The notes beneath the pieces are model-generated. The model made no database searches. It worked only from the letters and a program-made list of their open reading frames with translations, and was not told the origin of the DNA. A program made the position numbers and the translations under genes. This document shows positions 8,061 through 62,968 of a stretch of DNA of 64,000 nucleotides, piece after piece. How positions within the stretch are numbered: the stretch's first letter is position 1; each line of letters starts with the position of its first letter. The DNA is from Owenia fusiformis (taxonomy: Eukaryota; Annelida; Polychaeta; Sabellida; Oweniidae): NCBI GenBank assembly GCA_903813345.2, contig CAIIXF020000005.1, forward strand, positions 14,387,375-14,451,374. The letters are read 5' to 3'.

Positions 8061-8330
8061 TAGGTGTCTCCAGATATTAGACATACTGATTTAATATCAC
8101 AGCATCACCTACATTTAACCTAACTTCTAAAATGTAATCATAAGAAATATGATCATCTGGTATGATTAAAGGTAGAATCTAATATAGTACAACCTGTGAT
8201 TAACCTAACATAGGTATGTAACTAAGTATTATAGGCTTCTATTGTAATCTAGAGTGAAACAAAAGCCAAGACTAATGATGTTTCATAAATTCAATGATAG
8301 ATATTAGCTCAAGAGAAAAACGCCACATGG

Positions 8331-8500
8331 TCATGTTTTGAAATGTGAAAATAAGTGAAAAAATAGAGAAGTCAGCTGGGAGATATTTAAACAGACATAT
8401 AGCTCATACTCTAAATTGTATAGAAATGGCAGAAAATTAAGCAGTTTATTCAAATTTTAGAGAGAAATAGAGTGGAATAAGCATGAGCAGACGGACATTT
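8331..8500 (+). repeat. ~170 bp dispersed repeat, forward reference copy
   Basis: Used here as the reference orientation. Blocks in order: TCATGTTTTGAAATGTGAAA; a poorly kept middle; ACTCTAAATTGTATAGAAAT; TTTATTCAAATTTTAGAGAG; GTGGAATAAGCATGAGCAGA; CGGACATTTG. No pol III A/B boxes, poly(A) tail or target-site duplication are clear, so the class (SINE-like or MITE-like) is open. Confidence 0.8.
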
Positions 8501-10718
8501 GTCTCATGGTTTGAACCTCTGAATCACTGAAAATCATAATTGCTTTCGCTTCAATACAAAATAAGCTGATTATTAATATTGCCCTGTGAATGAAATTCTG
8601 TCAGATGAATTTTGGGAAGAAAACGTACAAAGCATGAAATCCACACCTGAAATCTAAAAAATCAAAGTTTAAGCAGGTTGAGCACTTTTTTCTGTAGAAC
8701 TCCAAGAATTTTAAGATACAGGTGTGAATTCAAACTTGGGACTGGAAATCATTGTTTATAGACATCAGAACTAATATTTTATTTTTGTTGGTCTATTGTT
8801 TTTGTAGTTCATGGTAACTTGATAATAAGAGATGAAAATTGTCATTAGCGCAAATATGGCTGGACAAATATGAACAATTTCACTTGGTTCTTTCAATGAA
8901 AACTCCATGTTCATAACATTTTCTTAACCAACATTTACAATGTTTCTTTGTAAGTATTTGTCATCCTAAACAGGATAAGGTCAAATTCCTGTTAAATAAA
9001 TGTTATTAAATAAATGTGATTGTTAGCATATTAAGTATCCAGATTTTCAAATAAATAAAATAAACAATACACATTACCTGACTTCACCTTCTGACTGCAA
9101 TAAAGCCAAGTCAGTGTGTATAACAAATGTATAAAATAACAATTCCAAAAATACCTTACCTTAAAAATACTGACCATTAAAGGCCTCATGTGGATAAAGA
9201 ACTCTGATAAATCAGAATATGTCTTAATACCTTTAATACTAAACTTACAACATTTGGAACTTTTGGAAGACAAGCCCATAATGCTAAATGGGTCTGAAAG
9301 GTTCTGAATGGGTCAGAACATTATACTAATTGGAGAAGACAGTTGGTCAATAAATGTGAATTCAGTTATAAAGCCCACCTAGTAATCATAATTAGGCCAG
9401 TAATTACATAGTAATTAGTACACTGTAACTTTCCCCTTTTCAAAATCACCCTAATGGTCCTATGTTTTGATAACTATATATTCTGATGGCTATATATTAC
9501 GATAACTACATATTATCAATTATATAAATGAAATGATCATCTTGAAATATTGTTGTACTATGTTCAAGTATGTTAAAAGTCAACTTTAAGCCATTAATAG
9601 TCATTATACGTATTCATAATTCATAATTAGATCCTTTTAGCTATTTATCCATTTATGTATATCAATATTATGCATTTATAATTAGACATTAAACAAACGA
9701 TAGGAACAATAACTACAACTATGCTTTCTTACCAACCAAACTCATTTTACAATTTTACCATTTAAACTCATTTCACAATTTTATTATTTAACAGTCAACC
9801 TAAACAGACATATAATTCCAAATCCAATCTACCATGACGCAGTTAAGAAAGTAAGGCTATTTCAAAAGATCGAACCTGTGACATCATACTATTTTGACCT
9901 TATCTCCCCTACTTATAGATCCCTCTCCTTTCATACATACTTAAATACACAGGATATTTGATGTCTACCTTATTCAAACTTTATCTTCCTTTTGAGTGTA
10001 TTGTTTCATAGCAAGGATATTGTGGATAAACCAAGTCAACAGACAACTACGCCCCTATCCTAAATCACATTAACCGGGAATGATTTTCCTGTCGTTAATT
10101 GTATCAAAAGTGCAAAAGACTTACCACTCGAATCGGTAAAAGCAAACTTTTGAATTGCACTTCCTTAAGATTCTAGTGTTCTATGGTATCTAATTATTTC
10201 TTTATAGGTAAATTATAGGTCTATAAGTAAGTGAGTGTTAAGAACTCTACAAAATAAGTACAAAATTATAAAATAAGGTCAACATTATGATTTCTGATAT
10301 TTTCACATTATTTTCTTATACTTTTCTGCACAAACACATTGTTTTGTCACTTTTCTATTAGTTTTTGTTGAATAAACAATAAACTAAAAGAAAAATAACT
10401 TTCTTCCCTGGAATATCAAGGTAAGTTTATCAATGCAATGTATTGACCAACATGGTACTTCATAAACCCAGAAATAACATGTCATTTTGCTTTGACCGAT
10501 TTCATAAATTGATCTTTTAAACTAAATGAAATTTTTCATTTTCTTTAATTTCTAGACAATAGAGGGTAAGGGATAAGTGATATCCTCTTCATTCCCTGTA
10601 GTTCCTTGAATAATATCTATTTCTCTTATTGAAAGATGATTAAGTTTGTTTTATTCCAGGGGTTTTCTGTTCTCTAACATGTAATCAGATATAGATGAGT
10701 TTCACTTGAATATTGAAC
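8501..10718. other. AT-rich unique sequence, nothing identified
   Basis: No repeat ends, RNA genes or convincing coding segments were found. Short minus-strand frames, such as 9031-9279, have no family resemblance. Confidence 0.45.
10710..10718. repeat. 9-bp target-site duplication, left (ATATTGAAC)
   Basis: Exact duplicate of 11078-11086. The pair brackets the TACCCT element and marks its borders. Confidence 0.85.
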
Positions 10719-11077
10719 TACCCTTTGCAATCGTTTGACTTCACTTCTTAAAAGAGAGCTTCGTCTTCACTCTTTCAAACTAAAATAAACCTGTGAAGTC
10801 ACCGCGCCAATCAGTGTTCGTCGGCCAAATTTGACCGACGTTCTTTATATGGTCATTCCTTCTGACGTCATCGTTGAGCCCGGAATTGACCAATGACATG
10901 CGCATATTTAATTAGAACGCATTTGGCGTATGTTTCTTCAAGCTCGCTGATTGGCGCGTAGGTCAAAAGTGATTTACCCAAACTGTCACCGTACCCGTCA
11001 CGGAAGCGGGGCTACTAAACTGTAATATGGTCTCTACTAGGCAGAGTGTAGTTTAACTAGACTCTGCACGCAGGGTA
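10719..11077 (+). mobile_element. Full-length TACCCT non-autonomous DNA transposon (359 bp)
   Basis: Starts TACCCTTTGCAATCG and ends CTGCACGCAGGGTA, so the ends form a short inverted repeat (TACCCT, then T/C-G-rich, then TGCA). It is flanked by exact 9-bp duplications. Inside are a perfect 12-bp inverted pair (CGCGCCAATCAG / CTGATTGGCGCG), a small hairpin CGTCGG...CCGACG, and a near-palindrome GCAGAGTGTAGTT...ACTCTGC beside the right end. It has no transposase frame and is more GC-rich than its surroundings. A 9-bp duplication fits Mutator-like elements best, with Merlin as an alternative. The superfamily is my inference. Confidence 0.88.
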
Positions 11078-11086
11078 ATATTGAAC
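11078..11086. repeat. 9-bp target-site duplication, right (ATATTGAAC)
   Basis: Identical to 10710-10718 and directly after AGGGTA. Confidence 0.85.
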
Positions 11087-12704
11087 CTTTTTTTCAACCA
11101 TTTCAACCAATCAAAAAACAATTCCATGGTAAATTCTCCCATTTTCACAACTTTTGATTCTTTGAGCAAAAAATACTTTTCAAAAATTTGAGTCAACGTT
11201 TTTAAGTTCAGTCTTGGCTTCAATATATATGTGTTCTACTTTCAAATATTTTTAAACCTTAAGAGTGCATATTTTATCACAAAATTCGTTGAGCTCTGAA
11301 CTTTAGTTCTCACGAAGTTTTTAAATATAGAAAGTTTTAGAAATGCACAATTAATAAATTAACAAATCCATTTGAAATCATTTATTGTGGCAATAATGTT
11401 CAAGTTCAAGGGTTATATGTAAATATAGAAACCATTGCATGCAAAAAAAACTTAACATGCAACCTTAGATATAGAAATATTTAACACTAGACAGTACTCC
11501 AACTGGGGGTATGGGCAAAAATCATGTCAAACTCATGAAACATAAAAAATTCAACCATTGAACCATAATCTCTTTTTGAAAGATATTCATGGCTTGCTCT
11601 AGTGACTTTTCTAATTGTATATGTTTTTTATATGATAGATGGCTTACTTTGAGAGTTTGATGTAGATCATACTCATAATTTTACCAACCACCATATTTCC
11701 GCCATCTGCGACAAAAGCAACAAGGCTTTTTTGAGCCATAAATTACTCGCAATAAAACCTATCTAGGACGTATCTGCGTATTTTCTTCCAGTCGATCTCA
11801 CAATAATAATTTTAATCTCTATAATGAGTCCATTTTTACTGGGATGGTACATTAATAGAGGCACGGCTAGTTAGGCATTTTATGGTTGAATACTTACAGG
11901 TATCCCATTCCGGGTATATTGTAGTGATTTATGTTTGGGTACCCTCGATGCTTGCCATCTAGCACAGAGCATTCTGTGACGCTTCCTCCTAAATTTCCGA
12001 ATTTGACGAATTTTTTTATTTTCAAGATAATCCTGATTTATGGCACTTTTCCTCAATTTGCGATTCCACTGGATAATTTTGATTCCTCAGATTATTCAGT
12101 TCGTCCAAATATTCCAATTTGTCAATTTCTAACTCCAATCGTGAAATACTCTATACATCTGTTAATCCCAAACATAAAATCCAATCATGGTATTCTATAT
12201 TCTACCTAAACTGTAATTAAAGTCCTCTTTCACTGCTACAACAAATAGGAACACTAGACCCATTCAAAAATAATCACCATCAATATAATAGTAATAACCT
12301 GTATGCTGTACTCAAAACACTAGTAAATAATGATAATATCTCACAAAACATATGCCGGACCAATTAGCCTTATGACATCATAAGTATACAGATCACAAAC
12401 TACTTCAAATTCTCCAGATCCAAGATCTTTGAAACAGGTGTTGTAACATCCCTGTCTGTCCACCTGCTAATGTGAGCATAACAAATACCTTTCTAATGTA
12501 TACTCAGTCCACCAGGTGACTGCTGAAAATTAATTAGCTTTCATTGGTTTTTCTGCAGACAAGCACAGCACTGTATCTGTATTTATTGGGAGAGAGAGTA
12601 CTGGCTTTCTTTTGAAAACAAACTGTGAAATTATAATGAATAGATTCAATAGATGGAATATCACAAAAGTTCTATACTTTTCGCATTCAAACTATCTATT
12701 TAGT
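11087..12704. other. AT-rich unique sequence, nothing identified
   Basis: The 92-codon frame at 11931-12209 (+) has an ATG but no recognisable domain and no splice context that would raise it above chance. Confidence 0.4.
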
Positions 12705-12782
12705 TACCCTTTGCATTTGTTCCACTTCACTTCTTAAAAGAGAGCTTCATCTTAGTAGTATATACCTTCTGCAAACAGGGTA
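12705..12782 (+). mobile_element. Short internally deleted TACCCT element (78 bp)
   Basis: Begins TACCCTTTGCATTTG, keeps the CTTCTTAAAAGAGAGCTTC block of the full copy, and ends TGCAAACAGGGTA. The flanks CTATTTAGT and CGATTTTGT match at 7 of 9 positions, as expected for an old 9-bp target duplication. The roughly 280 bp centre of the family is missing. Confidence 0.75.
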
Positions 12783-12972
12783 CGATTTTGTGTCCCTTTT
12801 TAGCAAAATATTGTACATGTACTTTCAAGTCAAATTGTGTGATCTACGTAAGATAACAGAAACATAATGTAACCTACCTGAATACCTGCTACATGTATTA
12901 TATTGACTTTTGGAACGCTTCTCTAAACTCCACACTCTCATATATAAGATGCCTGGGAGTAAAATACCACAA

Positions 12973-15736: not shown

Positions 15737-16235
15737 GATAAAGCCTTCCATTCATCTGGAAAGGCCTCACTTTTTATACAGATAAGGCCTGCTTTGGCCC
15801 CATAATCTTGAAAGGCTTCATTTTTTATATAGATAAAGGCCTGATTTGGCCCCATAATCTGGAAAGGCCTCACTTTTTATATAGATAAGGCCTGCTTTGG
15901 CCCCATAATCTGGAAAGGCCTCACTTTTTATATAGATAAGGCCTGCTTTGGCCCCATAATCTTGTAAGGCCTCATTTTTTATATAATTAAGGCCTGCTAT
16001 GGCCCCAAAATCTTGAAAGGCCTCATTTTTCATATAGATAAGGCCTGCTTTGGCCCCATAATCTTGGAAGGCCTCATTTTTTTTATATAGATAAGGCCTG
16101 CTTTGGCCCCATAATCTTGAAAGGCCTCATTTTTTATATAGATAAAGCCTGCATTGGCCCCATAATCTTGGAAGGCCTTATTTTTATATAGACAAGGCCT
16201 GCTCTGGCTCAAATATCTGGAAAGGCCTCGCTCAT
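15737..16235. repeat. 51-bp minisatellite, ten units
   Basis: Ten head-to-tail units of 50-53 bp built on GATAAGGCCTGCTTTGGCCC, CATAATCTTGAAAGGCCTC and a T-rich ATATA end. Because 51 is a multiple of three, the minus strand reads as a repeated 17-residue unit (like KNEAFQDYGAKAGLIYI) for long stretches. Units of 52, 53 and 50 bp shift the frame, and there is no sign of an exon. It is most likely a non-coding minisatellite. Confidence 0.95.
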
Positions 16236-26235: not shown

Positions 26236-26275
26236 TACCCTTTTCAAATAGTCTGATTTGCTTAAAAGAGAGCTA
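26236..26275 (+). mobile_element. TACCCT element, left-end fragment
   Basis: TACCCTTTTCAAATAG followed by TTGCTTAAAAGAGAGCT matches the first 40 bp of the family. A right border near 26330 (TATAGGGTT) is possible but has no matching flank. Confidence 0.5.
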
Positions 26276-35100: not shown

Positions 35101-35632
35101 TGTTCATGCTCATGATTTACCTTTGTAAATGAATTCATGTTCATGACTTACTTGTACAAAGGGATTCATGTTCATGACCTACCTGTAAAAATGAGGAATT
35201 CATGTTCATGCCTACCTATACAGAGGGATTCATGTTCATGACCTACCTGTACAAAGGGATTCATGTTCATGACTTACATATACAGAGGGATTCATGTTCA
35301 TGACCTCTCTTTACAAAAGGATTCATGTTCATGACCTTCCTGTACAAAGGGATTCACGTTCATGACTTACATATACAGAGGGATTCATGTTAATGACCTA
35401 CCTGTACAGAGGGATATGTGTTCATGTCCTACCTATACAAAGGGATTAATGTTCATGCCTATCTGTACAAAGGACTTCATGTTCATGACTTATGATATAC
35501 AAAGGGATTCATGTTCATGACCTACCTATACAAAGGGATTCATGTTCATGCCTATCTGTACAGAGGGATTGATGTTCATGATATACCTGATTAAAGGGAT
35601 TCATGTTCATGGTCTACCTGACAAAAGGATTC
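35101..35632. repeat. 31-bp minisatellite, about 18 units
   Basis: Unit GGGATTCATGTTCATGACCT + ACCTGTACAAA, repeated from 35101 with substitutions (ACAAA/ACAGA, CCTACC/CTTACA). Because 31 is not divisible by three it cannot keep an open frame. The array holds many ATG and TTCATG steps. Confidence 0.95.
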
Positions 35633-36849
35633 AAATACAAAGAAATAGATACCCCCGACCTGGAGAAATATAGCTACAAAATTGAAACTGTAGAAAAAAG
35701 AAAACATAAACACTGATCTCTAAATACAGTATGTCAAAGTTGCAAATATGCCATAGGATAGGTGCAAGTCGACCTCCCAGAAATTACCCTAAGAATATAA
35801 AAGGGGTCAAGTCGAATCAAATCTTATGAATTGAGAAAAGACTTAAGAATAGTATGAACAGAATTGAAGCATGTTTCCTAAATGGTGCAACCATTCAACA
35901 AGATCTGGTAATTTTTAAACTTGAGGGAATTAAAAGAGAACTACATAGTTTGCTGTACTTGAGATGTTTTCGATGGGATAACATGCAAAATGAAACCTTG
36001 CATGATGATCCAAATTTTTCTCTCTGCATGAACTTTTAACGCTCAACCCGGAGATATTAGTTCAAGGTTTTTTTCTCTAAATGTCTTCTGCACGAATATA
36101 CAACCTTATATGTGAGAATTACATCTGTTCAAATATGTCATGGCTTGCTCTATTGACTAAAATGAGATTTCAGCTCTTTCATTAGGGTATTGTACATGAA
36201 TTCTAAATATAATTAATTTTGAACAAAAGTATCAATTTAATAGTCTTTTTATATTGATTTGAGGGACTTTATGCTATTAAGTATCAGTAAAAATACAATG
36301 TTGTTTTAATCAAAATGTAAATTGGAGGGAGTCCGCGTTAAAAATGGATCTTTCAATAATGTTTATATCTCCAACAATGCTAGTTTGTAGTTAGTTATCC
36401 TTAAAATACTTGACCAGTTCAGTAAATGTGTTGATATACAAAGAAAATTAATTTAAATTTCATTTCCTTTTGGCAGTTAATCATTATTTTTATGATGCTA
36501 TCAAGCAGGTAAAAAATGACCAAGCAGCAGGTCTATGCCACACACGCCATATGTACCTGTATACCTACTTTGCCAGGTATTTTAAGCTTTGATGATCCTG
36601 TGGGACCAGTTACAAAATCTATACCTCCCTAAACAAATCAGGGAACTCTTCAAAAAAGAAACTCTGCTTTCTAATTAGACATAAAAACGTTGTCAGTATG
36701 TTAAACGCAAGGCTTCCGATTTTGAAAAAACTAGTAAAAAAGGAATGACTGATTTATAGCAATCAAGAATTCTGGATATAATATTCCCCTTTGAGATGGT
36801 CCCTCTTGGAATATGAACTGATCAAATAGGATACTTCCATTTCTGAAAA

Positions 36850-41700: not shown

Positions 41701-42132
41701 TTTAATCGTGAATATTACATATGCTCACCTCATCTTAACTGACAATAAGTAGCAATATGCATTAAAGGTAGCACAATCCTTTCAACGAAGAATTTCCATA
41801 AAGAAACGAAAAATTCTTCAAGCCAATCAAGTCAAGAAACCCAAGGAGTTCTTTAGAGATATTCAGCCTAGCATCGCAGAGATAATTGTTGAAATCTGGT
41901 GTTTTGTAGGAAACATGTGTTTTTAACCACTAAATAGAACATAGACTGGCTCTGCTAAAACATTAGGGATCTTCTTTCAATGTGAAAGGATAAAAGCAGA
42001 TTAGCTTTACTATCATTGCCAAAAATAGTTCAGTTCAAGTGAAATGTCAAACCAATACCTGGTTAGCCTTAGACCGACAGAGATGATTCATTCTTTATTG
42101 CTCTAACTGGTATTTGGCATAAGCAATAGAAT

Positions 42133-42325
42133 AATCAGCACAACGCAAGGTTTTGAATCAGCAAAACCTAAGATATAATCAGCACAATCCAAGATATAAT
42201 CAGCACAACCCAAGATATAATCAGCGCAATCAAATATAAAATTAGCTCAACCCAAGATATAATCAGTACAACCCAAGATGTAATCAGCACAACCAAAGAT
42301 ATAATCAGCACACCCAAAGATATGA
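42133..42325. repeat. 21-bp minisatellite, about nine units
   Basis: Units ATAATCAGCACAACCCAAGA+T, with GCGCAATCAA and AGTACAACCC variants. Confidence 0.92.
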
Positions 42326-42758: not shown

Positions 42759-42926
42759 TACTAGTTCTATGATATAACCTGTATGTTAATGAAATACTCT
42801 CAAAAATGAAATCAAATGAGCCAATATGTGAAAAATATGTCTTTTTATGCTACCCCAAGTTTAAAAGAAGCAAAATGAAACCATCGTGATTTATCAACAA
42901 TTGGAAGGAGTATTTTGTTGATTAGT

Positions 42927-43273
42927 TACCCTGCGTGCAGAGTCTAGTTTAACTACACTCTGCCTAGAAGAGACCATATTACAGTTTAGTAGCCCCGCCC
43001 CCAGGATGGGTACCGGTGACAGTTTGGGTAGTAAATCACTTCTGACCTACGTGCTGACCTTTCTTCCACCAATCAGCGAGCTTGAAGAAACAGACGCCAA
43101 ATGCGTTCTAATTAAATATGCGCATGTCATTGGTCAATTTCGGGCTCATATATGACGTCAGAAGGAATGCCCATATATAGAACGTCGGTCAAATTTGGCC
43201 GACGAACACTGATTGGCGCGGTGAGTTCACAGGTTTATTTTAGTTTGAAAGAGTGAAGACGAAGCTCTTTTTT
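42927..43273 (-). mobile_element. TACCCT element, inverted near-full copy
   Basis: Reads TACCCTGCGTGCAGAG, then the GCAGAGTCTAGTT...ACTCTGC palindrome, CACCAATCAGCGAGCTTG, GACGAACACTGATTGGCGCG, and GTGAAGACGAAGCTC. This is the reverse complement of 10719-11077 over nearly its whole length. The last ~40 bp (with the other terminus) are missing and unrelated sequence follows. One change: CGCCCCCAGGATGGGTACC replaces the corresponding region of the first copy. Confidence 0.87.
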
Positions 43274-45670
43274 AGTTGAAAGCCCATGCTAGCACCCACC
43301 TGAAAATCCATTTGCACCCATTTGAAAATGAAAAAAAATCATGAAAATTTGGCATATTTTGACCAATTTTGGTATGAATTGTGAAAATGAGAATTTTGCA
43401 CCCACTTGAGAAAAATCCTGTGAAGATCACTGTTGATGCTTCAATCTATCAACTGCACTGGTGCACTTGCAACTAGGAGTTGACACTTGCCTTAAGCCAA
43501 GGGCAAGAATGAAGAATAATGAACACACTCGTGTATATACTATGGACAAGTGCTTGACCTACATCTTGACATAATTATTAGCCCATTACCTACAAGTAAA
43601 TATTTCACTTGTACTTGTATATATTGTACGTTGTCTCTGTAAGTACGATTTTTCTGATTTTATACCATTTTGAGGATAGAATTCATCATGGATAATATAA
43701 TCCCATTTATACACAAGCCTTGACGTGTCGATTTTGTGATTATTTTCTTCATGAGAGATGTGCTATTATACATGTATATATACTCCTAAAATAACACATG
43801 CCTTCAGCGATTATGTTGTCTTTAAAAAAATACCAACAACTTCCAAAATAATAGGCCACTAAGTTCCAGGGGCCAAAATAGATAAGTTTTATGACTTTTA
43901 TGATTTCCAAGAATTCTTCAGGATTACTCAGAGAAATCCAAATGAAAACATATTTCTTTTTGAAAAGTGACAAAGTTGATCAATGGTTCGACATGTGAAT
44001 CTACACAAATGACAGGAGCAAATCACAAGAGGCAAGAGTATTATGAAAAGTGTGTACGACAGGTGAAAACAAAATGCCTAAGGATGGAAACAGGTTTTAT
44101 AGTGGTCATACAGGCGTCTATAGGTCTTCATAGTTATATATCTCAAGGACGTTTGCACTTGTTTTACACATAGTAACAGTACTTATAAACTTTTTACAAA
44201 ATTACCATGTTGTTCTTTTCATACGCCAGCACACATTGCATAAAAGAAATTAATGGAACCATAATTATTGCCAATTTTGCATTTCACATGGAATCCTTCA
44301 AAAACTGATGAATTTTGCATTGCTATTTCAGTACTTTATAAAATACATGTAATTATATCATCGTTCTCATTTGTAGAACACATACTGGATAGATGTGAGT
44401 GGGACCTGATTAGGACCTGATTAGGACCTGACTAGGACCTGGGTCCTTCAAATATGAAGTTTCCTGTAATTAGTTAAAGTTCAATGCTTTTCAAATATGA
44501 CACCGAAACCAAAATATTTGATTTAAGTACATGATTAACTAAATATTAATCTAGGAAATCGATTTTAGGGTAAACTAACACTGAAACTCATTTATTTCAA
44601 ATGTCCATTTTATCATATCAAATTACAACAGACACCATATTTCAAATTAAAATTGTGTTTGTTTAATTAATACAAACCAGGTTTCAAAATGAAGATTATA
44701 ACCGGGTTAGAATAATAATCTAGGCAAGAACAAAACGTGTGAATTATTAATTAAATTAATGAACTAAATCCAAATTTGAATATAAATTAGATCACGCCAT
44801 GGCACGTGCACTATTCTCACTCTTCAGAAATTTTCTGTAAGAAACTGGTCCAAAAATAAAATAACACAAATATCAAGATCAGAAGCTTAAAATCACACCC
44901 TCAGAATAAAGATAAAGTTAAAGCTTTTTGTTAGAGATGCAAAATCATACTTTTCACAAAGGGTAGCTTGAGATGTGAGACTATTATATCACAAAGCGGC
45001 AACAAAACTTAAATATACACAGGCACATACAGACCACAAAGTAACATCCCAAATTGAGCTGATCAATGTGAATAGAATGAAGACCTCCAATAAGACGACC
45101 CATTCAACTCCCATGATCATCAAATCACTATCAATATCAAGTTGGATCATAAACCACCATGCTTGAAATGTTACAAATCCTTCTTTGTGATTCTGCTAAA
45201 AGGCGCTAAACTGGCACAAAAGGCTTTGACCATACCCCCTCCCTATTAAATCATCCTTCAATGGACGCCATGGATGTATTTAACAATTCCAGTACATTCT
45301 GAATGATCCAAATGACTTCTATTACAATAGAGCTTGATATTAATAGACCAAAATCCTCCGAAAATAAACCGGTGACCACCAATTAAGAATTTCATCAATC
45401 TTTCAAAAATCAATTAATGTTACTCCTTTGGGTAGTATTTCTATACAATGCACAACAAAGGTTCGTGTTTAGTTGTAAAATTATTTTTGAAATATCCTCT
45501 ATTCCATCTTTTTGCATGAAAAGGGGTAATTTTGGAAGAATTTTAGACAAGTAGCGTTCACCCAGGGATATGTCAACTCTGGTGAATGTCTAGATTGAAA
45601 ACATTTAAATTTTGATTCAGTACAACACAGTTATAATTGAAATATTCACCCGTAGATGAAATTACATGGA
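43274..45670. other. AT-rich sequence, nothing identified but a small tandem repeat
   Basis: Holds the 13-bp array at 44401-44450. No coding or RNA signal was found. Confidence 0.4.
44401..44450. repeat. 13-bp tandem repeat (GGACCTGATTAGG)
   Basis: Nearly four units of GGACCTGATTA, the third with GACTA, ending at GGACCTGGGTCC. Confidence 0.9.
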
Positions 45671-50166: not shown

Positions 50167-50337
50167 GATCCCCCTTGTGTCAAATCCCCCTTGTGTTAAA
50201 ACCTCTTGTGCCAAAACCCCCTTGTGACAAAACCCCCTGGTGTCAAACCCCCATGTCAAACCCTCTGTTTTAAACCCCCTTTGAGTCAAACCCCATGTGT
50301 CAAACCCCCCCTGTATCAAACCCCCTTATGTCAAATC
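50167..50337. repeat. 14-15 bp minisatellite, CCCCCTTGTGTCAAA
   Basis: About twelve units with length drift. The minus-strand frame across it (repeated Gly-Phe-Asp-Thr-Arg) comes from the repeat. Confidence 0.93.
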
Positions 50338-56503: not shown

Positions 56504-56821
56504 CTAATAATGACTTAGCAAATCAAACTTTAACTTTCGTTCAAATGATTTGATATGTTTAGACTTTTTGAGATCAAGTGAAAGAGTATTGTAAAGTAAT
56601 GGGCCACTTGTTTCAATTGATTTTCTTCCAATTTCTGTTCTGAATTTTTTTACAGTTAAATTCTTATTAATTCTCGTGTCATGATTATGAATTGCGGTTC
56701 CTGGAACAAATAAATGTTTGAACTTTTGAAAAGGAAATTCTGGTGATTCTGAAACAGTTTTCTGAACAAAGCTAATAGTTTCATGGGCAATCTCTATTAC
56801 GTTTGTGAATTGTTTGTTTAT
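56504..56821 (-). pseudogene. Reverse-transcriptase C-terminal fragment, CR1/L2/Jockey type
   Basis: 105 codons open on the minus strand before TAG (56504-56506), with no upstream start because the 5' part is missing. The end of such retrotransposon proteins is recognisable: 'HNHDTR' (usual H-N-x-x-T-R), 'FRTEIGRKSI' (R-T-E-x-G-x-x-S), 'GPLLYNTLSLDLK' (usual G-x-x-L-W-N-x-L-P) and 'FERKLKFDLL' (F-K-x-x-L-K). The catalytic part is absent, so it cannot act. Homology probably stops at 56799, where a 25-bp repeat and unrelated DNA begin. The clade is uncertain. Confidence 0.72.
56775..56799. repeat. 25-bp direct repeat, copy 1
   Basis: ATAGTTTCATGGGCAATCTC + TATTA, identical to 57250-57274. It lies at the border where the retroelement frame loses its similarity. 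Confidence 0.9.
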
Positions 56822-60208: not shown

Positions 60209-60217
60209 AATGACAGA
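60209..60217. repeat. 9-bp target-site duplication, left (AATGACAGA)
   Basis: Exact match with 60297-60305 around the short TACCCT element. Confidence 0.88.
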
Positions 60218-60296
60218 TACCCTTTGCATTCATTTGACTTCACTTCTTAAAAGAGAGCTTCGTCTTGTAGTTTAACTAGACTCTGGACGCAGGGTA
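60218..60296 (+). mobile_element. Short internally deleted TACCCT element (79 bp)
   Basis: Keeps about 50 bp of the left end (TACCCTTTGCATTCATTTGA, TTAAAAGAGAGCTTCGTCTT) joined to 29 bp of the right end (TAGTTTAACTAGACTCTGG, CAGGGTA). It is flanked by exact 9-bp duplications, so it moved in this short form. Confidence 0.92.
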
Positions 60297-60305
60297 AATG
60301 ACAGA
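60297..60305. repeat. 9-bp target-site duplication, right (AATGACAGA)
   Basis: Identical to 60209-60217. Confidence 0.88.
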
Positions 60306-61094
60306 TAGAAAGAAAACATTATCTAAAAGGCTGTAAATTACAATGCTGTAAAACTGATGGTAATCTGGTAGGAGTTTTCCCAGAATGGTAGCATATTGTT
60401 TCACAGATTGCACCCAATGTCCCTAATGTTCCTGTGTTTGAACAGTCTTGTGTAACAATCGATACGACAAACCCTAAGACAAATGACACATTATATTTTA
60501 ATCTGGCACGCGGTATCAAATATCAGGATTAGTACAGCCACAGCGTCCCTATATTTCTTCTTTCATTGATACAATCATTGGCTTTCAACAGACCCATGAT
60601 ACAATATATGAATAACGGATGTTAGAATTGTGAAGAAAGAATAGGAATTGAAATTTAAAACTGTCCATACGTCTGCTTATATGTACTGCCCAAAAAGTGT
60701 GACCTGAGGCTATGATCGAGTCAATTCTAGACAATGCTTTCATTAAACAGACAATGTAACACTATAAACTGTAGCTATATTGCATAGAGGGGTGTATGAA
60801 CAAGGAAGCACAAGGGAAAACAGTAGAAGAACGAACAAGGCATTAACATGCACAATGTCACCAACTGCCATTTGTTACAGACACTGAACACCAAACACAA
60901 ACTGCTGAACTCTGTCCACAAAAAAGTTGTAGACCATAACAATAGATCACCACTTGTGGTGGTGACATAAAAAAAAGTGAACACCCAGGGCAAATAATAA
61001 TAACCACCATTTTGTGATCATCAAAGGACAGGGAGGCAATGTCCTTAAATAAAGGCAATTGCTGGTCATTCAACATAACCATTTGTCCAACAAC

Positions 61095-61192
61095 TACCCT
61101 GCGTGCAGAGTCTAGTTATAAACTACTGAAGACGAAGCGGGAGACGAAGCTCTCTATTGAGAAGCAAAGTCGAATGATTTCAAAGCTGGGTA
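61095..61192 (-). mobile_element. Short TACCCT element, reverse orientation (98 bp)
   Basis: Starts TACCCTGCGTGCAGAGTCTA and ends with CAAAGCTGGGTA. It contains two GACGAAGC steps, suggesting a small internal duplication. The flanks TCCAACAAC and TCCAACAAA match at 8 of 9 positions. Confidence 0.82.
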
Positions 61193-61274
61193 TCCAACAA
61201 AATGATTACATACATAGATGGCATGCCTCCCTGTACTTTATGGGATATCCAAGGATTGACCCCTAATCTTTGTC

Positions 61275-61400: not shown

Positions 61401-61917
61401 GTTCGTTGTTAACAGATAACTGGTTGCTCATCTTTAGAAGTAAAGTATTACACAATCACATGATTTGTTTAGTGGTAGTGGTTATATAGATGAAAGCAAA
61501 GCATAAGGATTAAGCTACATCTCCTTCTAATCTACTCTTAACCCAAAATCAACAACATTTGATTGAAAGTTATTATTGTATTGTAATATGATTAGAGATG
61601 ATATACAACCATGGGATATTGAAAATGGAGACCACCTGTTAAAATGTCAAGTCTTAGCTCACTGAAAAAATAATCCTAGATTGATCAAGGGTATAGTTAA
61701 TATCTTCAGGGTTTTCTCTTTTGCATAATAAAATGCAATTTGATTTGATATTGATGGGAAACGAATTGCTGGATCTTATCACGATGGGAAACTTTTTGGG
61801 AAAATAATCAAGATTGAGCAAATACTACAGATTGAATGTTGATAAGTTAGTTATATTCAGTTATAATTGTGAAATAGAAAAAAGGCATGAAATCATCAAA
61901 AATGAAAGAAAATATAG

Positions 61918-61953
61918 ATGAAGCTCTCTTTTAAGAGACTGTTAGAAAGGGTA
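61918..61953 (-). mobile_element. TACCCT element, one-end fragment
   Basis: GATGAAGCTCTCTTTTAAGA and AAAGGGTA match the terminal 35 bp of the family in reverse orientation. Confidence 0.6.
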
Positions 61954-62571: not shown

Positions 62572-62588
62572 GTCAATGTTAGGGAGCA
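62572..62588. repeat. 17-bp repeat GTCAATGTTAGGGAGCA, first copy
   Basis: Identical to the tandem pair at 62935-62968. Confidence 0.9.
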
Positions 62589-62934: not shown

Positions 62935-62968
62935 GTCAATGTTAGGGAGCAGTCAATGTTAGGGAGCA
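62935..62968. repeat. 17-bp repeat GTCAATGTTAGGGAGCA, tandem pair
   Basis: Two perfect head-to-tail copies, 346 bp after the first one. Confidence 0.93.

Follow-up and report, generated by a model that had tools for sequence, protein, structure and literature searches.

What kind of element occupies positions 10719–11077 in this part of the Owenia fusiformis genome, and how could it have moved? The window, the whole 64-kb stretch of DNA analyzed here, holds a small family to which this 359-bp sequence belongs. Using BLAST and end profiles, we found four complete copies (E1 to E4), one 5'-truncated copy (B) and two weak fragments. Every complete copy has TACCC at its start and GGGTA at its end, and the family comes in two length forms, of roughly 79 and 359 bp. 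We are confident that the TACCC...GGGTA family is a non-autonomous, MITE-like DNA transposon; the joint reading, that it is such an element and was also mobilized by a Mutator-like (MULE) transposase, we hold to be moderately probable. It is small mobile DNA without a transposase of its own, a common kind of element, and may be a family not yet described.

The long copy E1 (10719–11077, plus strand) runs from TACCCT to AGGGTA and is flanked on the left (10710–10718) and on the right (11078–11086) by ATATTGAAC, identical at nine of nine positions. This element and its flanks are present as an earlier note on this DNA had described them, and the flanks that it gave for the other complete copies were recovered as well. 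E2 (60218–60296, plus strand), a short copy of 79 bp, lies between two exact copies of AATGACAGA (60209–60217 and 60297–60305). The 98-bp copy E4 (61095–61192, minus strand), in which the 5' core is most diverged, lies between TCCAACAAC (61086–61094) and TCCAACAAA (61193–61201), both given in plus-strand letters and matching at 8/9. E3 (12705–12782, plus strand), of 78 bp and with a diverged 3' half, lies between CTATTTAGT (12696–12704) and CGATTTTGT (12783–12791), which match at 7/9. Together the 9-bp direct flanks agree at 33 of 36 positions, in a sample of four insertion sites of which two have imperfect flanks. For flank lengths of 3–8 and 10–13 the identity over the four complete copies is 19–40%.

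The borders themselves were judged in several ways. Among 625 combinations of border shifts, from -12 to +12 on each side, the borders given above scored highest (33, with a runner-up at 31), while in two million random draws of four site pairs each, taken from the window, the maximum was 25/36. With the five terminal letters (TACCC, GGGTA) as the sole criterion, the window contains 23 pairs spaced 50–500 bp apart; flanks matching at 7/9 or better occur in four of them, which are exactly E1 to E4. The frequency with which random pairs of 9-mers reach 7/9 is 0.0028, so about 0.07 such cases would be expected among 23 pairs. In 60 first-order Markov windows no pair had flanks of at least 7/9, the mean number of pairs in these being only 8.5, versus 23 in the real window. 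The borders and the 9-bp rule proposed in the earlier note are therefore borne out, with 33/36 reached at a length of nine only, the best score of the 625 shifts, and the same four copies returned by the pair scan. When the 150-bp flanks of each of the four copies were joined and compared with the window, they matched only themselves, apart from short matches with E values of 0.015 or higher, leaving no sign in the window of a target copy without the insertion.

The fifth copy, B (42927–43274, minus strand), is a long copy with its 3' end and interior intact and its 5' end truncated. It aligns to E1 from E1 position 31 to 359, with 311 of 348 columns identical and 19 gap positions, and the first 30 bp are absent. 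Its 3' flank, ACTAATCAA, has no partner beside its 5' side, and no duplication is recognizable there. The two fragments are pieces of the 5' core. A weak one at 26236–26274 (plus strand, starting TACCCTTTTCAAA, nhmmer E 0.011) has no 3' end, and downstream to 29000 there is no match to its flank with at most one mismatch. For the other, at 61914–61953 (minus strand, starting TACCCTTTCTAACAG, nhmmer E 1.1e-4), a 3' end was likewise not found, and the one flank-like match lies 1 kb off, not preceded by GGGTA.

All complete copies have in common ~49 bp at the 5' end and 30–31 bp at the 3' end, a core of ~79 bp, which in E1 corresponds to 10719–10767 (49 bp) and 11047–11077 (31 bp). The short copies E2, E3 and E4 consist of hardly more than these two segments. 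BLAST with E1 as the query detected E2 and E4 by both of their ends (E values no higher than 2.4e-7), E3 by its 5' end and B by its 3' core. The diverged 3' end of E3 was not matched in this search and was detected by the end profile, at 9.6e-6 with a profile that itself includes E3. Because the copies scored by the end profiles are those from which the profiles were made, homology is taken from BLAST wherever BLAST finds it. E1 and E2 are identical at 76 of 79 core positions.

The inverted termini TACCCT/AGGGTA are present in E1, E2 and E3 and are followed by an interrupted TTGCA-like stretch, giving a terminal inverted repeat of ~6 bp followed by 5 bp with an interruption. The clearest inverted pair is that of E3 (TACCCTTTGCA versus TACCCTGTTTGCA), and on the 5' side of E4 only TACCC is kept. 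At the borders of the copies there is neither a poly(A) tail nor any LTR structure.

Do the copies encode anything? The window has 77 stop-to-stop open reading frames of at least 70 amino acids, and none of these overlaps E1. Four, of 75–85 amino acids, overlap E3, E4 or B, one of them (42922–43155, plus strand) lying almost wholly inside B. We compared 22 of the 77 with Pfam, including all four that overlap a copy, and found no transposase among them. The four overlapping frames gave no match above the curated cut-off; the sub-threshold matches among the 22 were TMEM234 (E 0.038) and, from the overlapping frames, YDR124W_N (E 0.099). Elsewhere in the window, a 105-amino-acid open frame at 56504–56821 (minus strand) has no Pfam match; we take it to resemble the C-terminal region of a non-LTR reverse transcriptase. 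The window contains no tRNA and no Rfam match at gathering scores.

In all, the same ends recur at unrelated sites with direct duplications of fixed length in four copies, terminal inverted repeats are present, though short, and copies of 78–359 bp carry no transposase of their own. Taken with the missing tail, the lack of recognizable coding capacity and the lack of a tRNA or Rfam match, the inverted termini and fixed-length duplications point to a non-autonomous DNA transposon of the MITE type. Short non-coding sequences with duplications of ~9 bp could also be retroposed copies, of a SINE or a processed small RNA, with target duplications; the fixed length of those duplications, the inverted termini, the want of an A-rich tail and the Rfam and tRNA results for the window all speak against retroposition, which we regard as scarcely credible.

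The long form differs from the short one by an added interior found only in E1 and B, of 279 bp (10768–11046) and 298 bp, respectively, by profile borders. The E1 interior is self-complementary and rich in CpG, with a G+C content of 0.459 and a CpG observed/expected ratio of 1.3, whereas the window overall has 0.336 and 0.42; just 0.9% of 279-bp windows, taken in steps of 50 bp, contain as many CpGs. For B as a whole the values are 0.451 and 0.95. The CpG richness of E1, together with its exact flanks, suggests that it is a recent insertion. The two length forms, copy B, the two fragments, the compact core of 79 bp and this CpG-rich palindromic interior are all additions to the earlier note. 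By reasoning from unrooted copies, a single gain of the interior and a single loss fit equally well.

As single-stranded DNA, E1 folds better than all 100 of its shuffles (z -4.23) by means of nested internal inverted repeats, a result for E1 itself, one of the two long copies in the window. For the three short copies the folding does not exceed that of shuffles (z 0.34, -0.51 and -0.07), which gives no support to a hairpin function of the core. The folding of E1 raises the question of whether the family is a foldback type related to MULEs, like Rehavkus or Tm1, with the palindromic interior as part of its structure. Literature cited here and below by PMC number is represented by excerpts, and what we say of it holds for those excerpts. 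Rehavkus duplications are 9 bp long (PMC6446971) and those of Tm1 mostly 9 bp (PMC3169594), which agrees with such an origin, but the inverted arms of E1 are internal rather than terminal, the three short copies lack any folding beyond that of shuffles, and no tandem-repeat array was reported at the copies. We give a foldback origin a low probability.

Other repeats occur in the window as well. A second interspersed family, up to ~200 bp long, is present at 8306–8509 and at 15 further places from 5839 to 58986 on both strands (BLAST gave 16 further rows, one of which overlaps another place). Its copies are mostly 69–77% identical to the one at 8306 and contain TTCAAATTTTAGAGAGAAAT...AAGCATGAGCAGACGG. 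Tandem arrays lie at 15754–16229 (51-bp unit), 35103–35633 (31 bp), 42131–42323 (21 bp) and 50170–50335 (16 bp), and a 17-bp unit, GTCAATGTTAGGGAGCA, occurs twice in tandem at 62935–62968 and once at 62572–62588.

A longer relative with the same ends could carry the transposase. The window has 578 TACCC...GGGTA pairs at spacings of 501–20000 bp, and in none of them do the flanks match at 8/9 or better. Patterns taken from either end or from the interior, exact or gapped, had no match in viral contigs, and patterns of the two ends had none in prokaryotic genome contigs; these scans needed exact matches and have little bearing on a eukaryotic family, for which a null result was expected. A literature search for four end sequences returned no transposon paper, the 11-letter 5' end occurring once in each of four papers that, by title, concern thalassaemia (two), rice disease and Zika virus. 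In further literature searches nothing on this family was seen among the matches listed, going by title and the start of the abstract.

Could the family then represent a DNA transposon lineage outside the described superfamilies, defined by TACCCT...AGGGTA ends and 9-bp duplications? We know of no superfamily that we could name with such ends, and the unrelated papers returned by the end-sequence search are in keeping with novelty at this level. Against this, the termini of non-autonomous elements vary widely inside superfamilies, and the transposase of the family is not in hand. MULEs with short degenerate inverted repeats, or with none, are moreover known (PMC6446971), and a new lineage appears improbable to us. 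A stronger version, in which the lineage is an undescribed eukaryotic one and the minimal 79-bp form was mobilized as such, placing it among the smallest transposon substrates to occur naturally in animals, is likewise improbable. An undescribed family would mean one more entry for repeat libraries. Apart from the short form, the element is of a type ordinary among eukaryotic mobile DNA. The short form has an interest of its own: three copies of 78–98 bp with 9-bp flanks suggest that ends of ~49 bp and ~30 bp suffice for mobility, and such sufficient end segments would define the region bound by the transposase.

How, then, would a MITE-like element of this kind move? No transposase match was found in the open reading frames scanned and no longer intact relative in the window, so the enzyme must come from elsewhere, and mobilization would be in trans. 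A transposase encoded elsewhere in the genome would recognize the shared ends (49 bp and 31 bp, each beginning with TACCC on its own strand) and either excise or copy the element. The element would then be joined to target DNA with cuts 9 bp from each other, and repair of the gaps would leave the 9-bp duplications.

Going by the duplication length alone, this enzyme is most likely a MULE transposase. Target-site duplications of MULEs are 8–11 bp (PMC6446971) and those of MuDR/IS256 4–10 bp (PMC10045372), and with 9 bp the present family falls inside both ranges. The same guess had been made in the earlier note, and it stands as far as duplication length is concerned, but the inverted repeats of the family are below the 14–500 bp of the MULEs analyzed in PMC6446971. 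Repeats of that length are a common feature of MULEs, not an obligatory one: MULEs with none, or with short degenerate ones, are described in the same paper, so the short repeats seen here do not exclude a MULE. All mollusc genomes analyzed in PMC10294476 contain MULEs, and hAT and Merlin occur in molluscs too, which would bear on the present family if its host were a mollusc.

The same element type could instead have been moved by a transposase from a superfamily that normally makes 8-bp duplications, here in a 9-bp variant. For hAT, P and Zisupton-like elements 8 bp is the usual length. At a flank length of eight, our four copies score 2, 1, 2 and 3 of 8; all four fit nine and none fits eight. 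The TACCCT ends are also, we take it, unlike those of hAT or Merlin. Merlin duplications, at 8 bp (PMC10045372), are one step from nine, and a transposase of one of these 8-bp superfamilies seems to us unlikely, if less so than a new lineage or a foldback origin.

Returning to the MULE reading, we compared the family with known systems. Merlin and IS1016-type elements are DNA transposons with duplications near 9 bp, but 8 bp are reported for them versus 9 bp here (PMC10045372). The MULE-Mollusca group, known from molluscs, is tabulated without inverted repeats, and in the excerpt its duplication length is "not indicated" and its termini are not given, so it offers no comparison with the present family (PMC6446971). 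More can be said of Tm1, a MULE family of root-knot nematodes with MITE-like members (PMC3169594). The ends of Tm1 are composite foldback arms of tandem 13–15 bp units with the outer motifs CGGTTAA/CCTACCC (PMC3169594), whereas the present family has TACCC at both ends, and neither tandem units of that kind were seen nor a transposase found for it. In Tm1, 45 of 53 complete elements have duplications of 8–10 bp, most often 9, and, as far as the excerpt goes, the two families are alike in their 9-bp duplications, their short transposase-less members and their asymmetric ends (PMC3169594).
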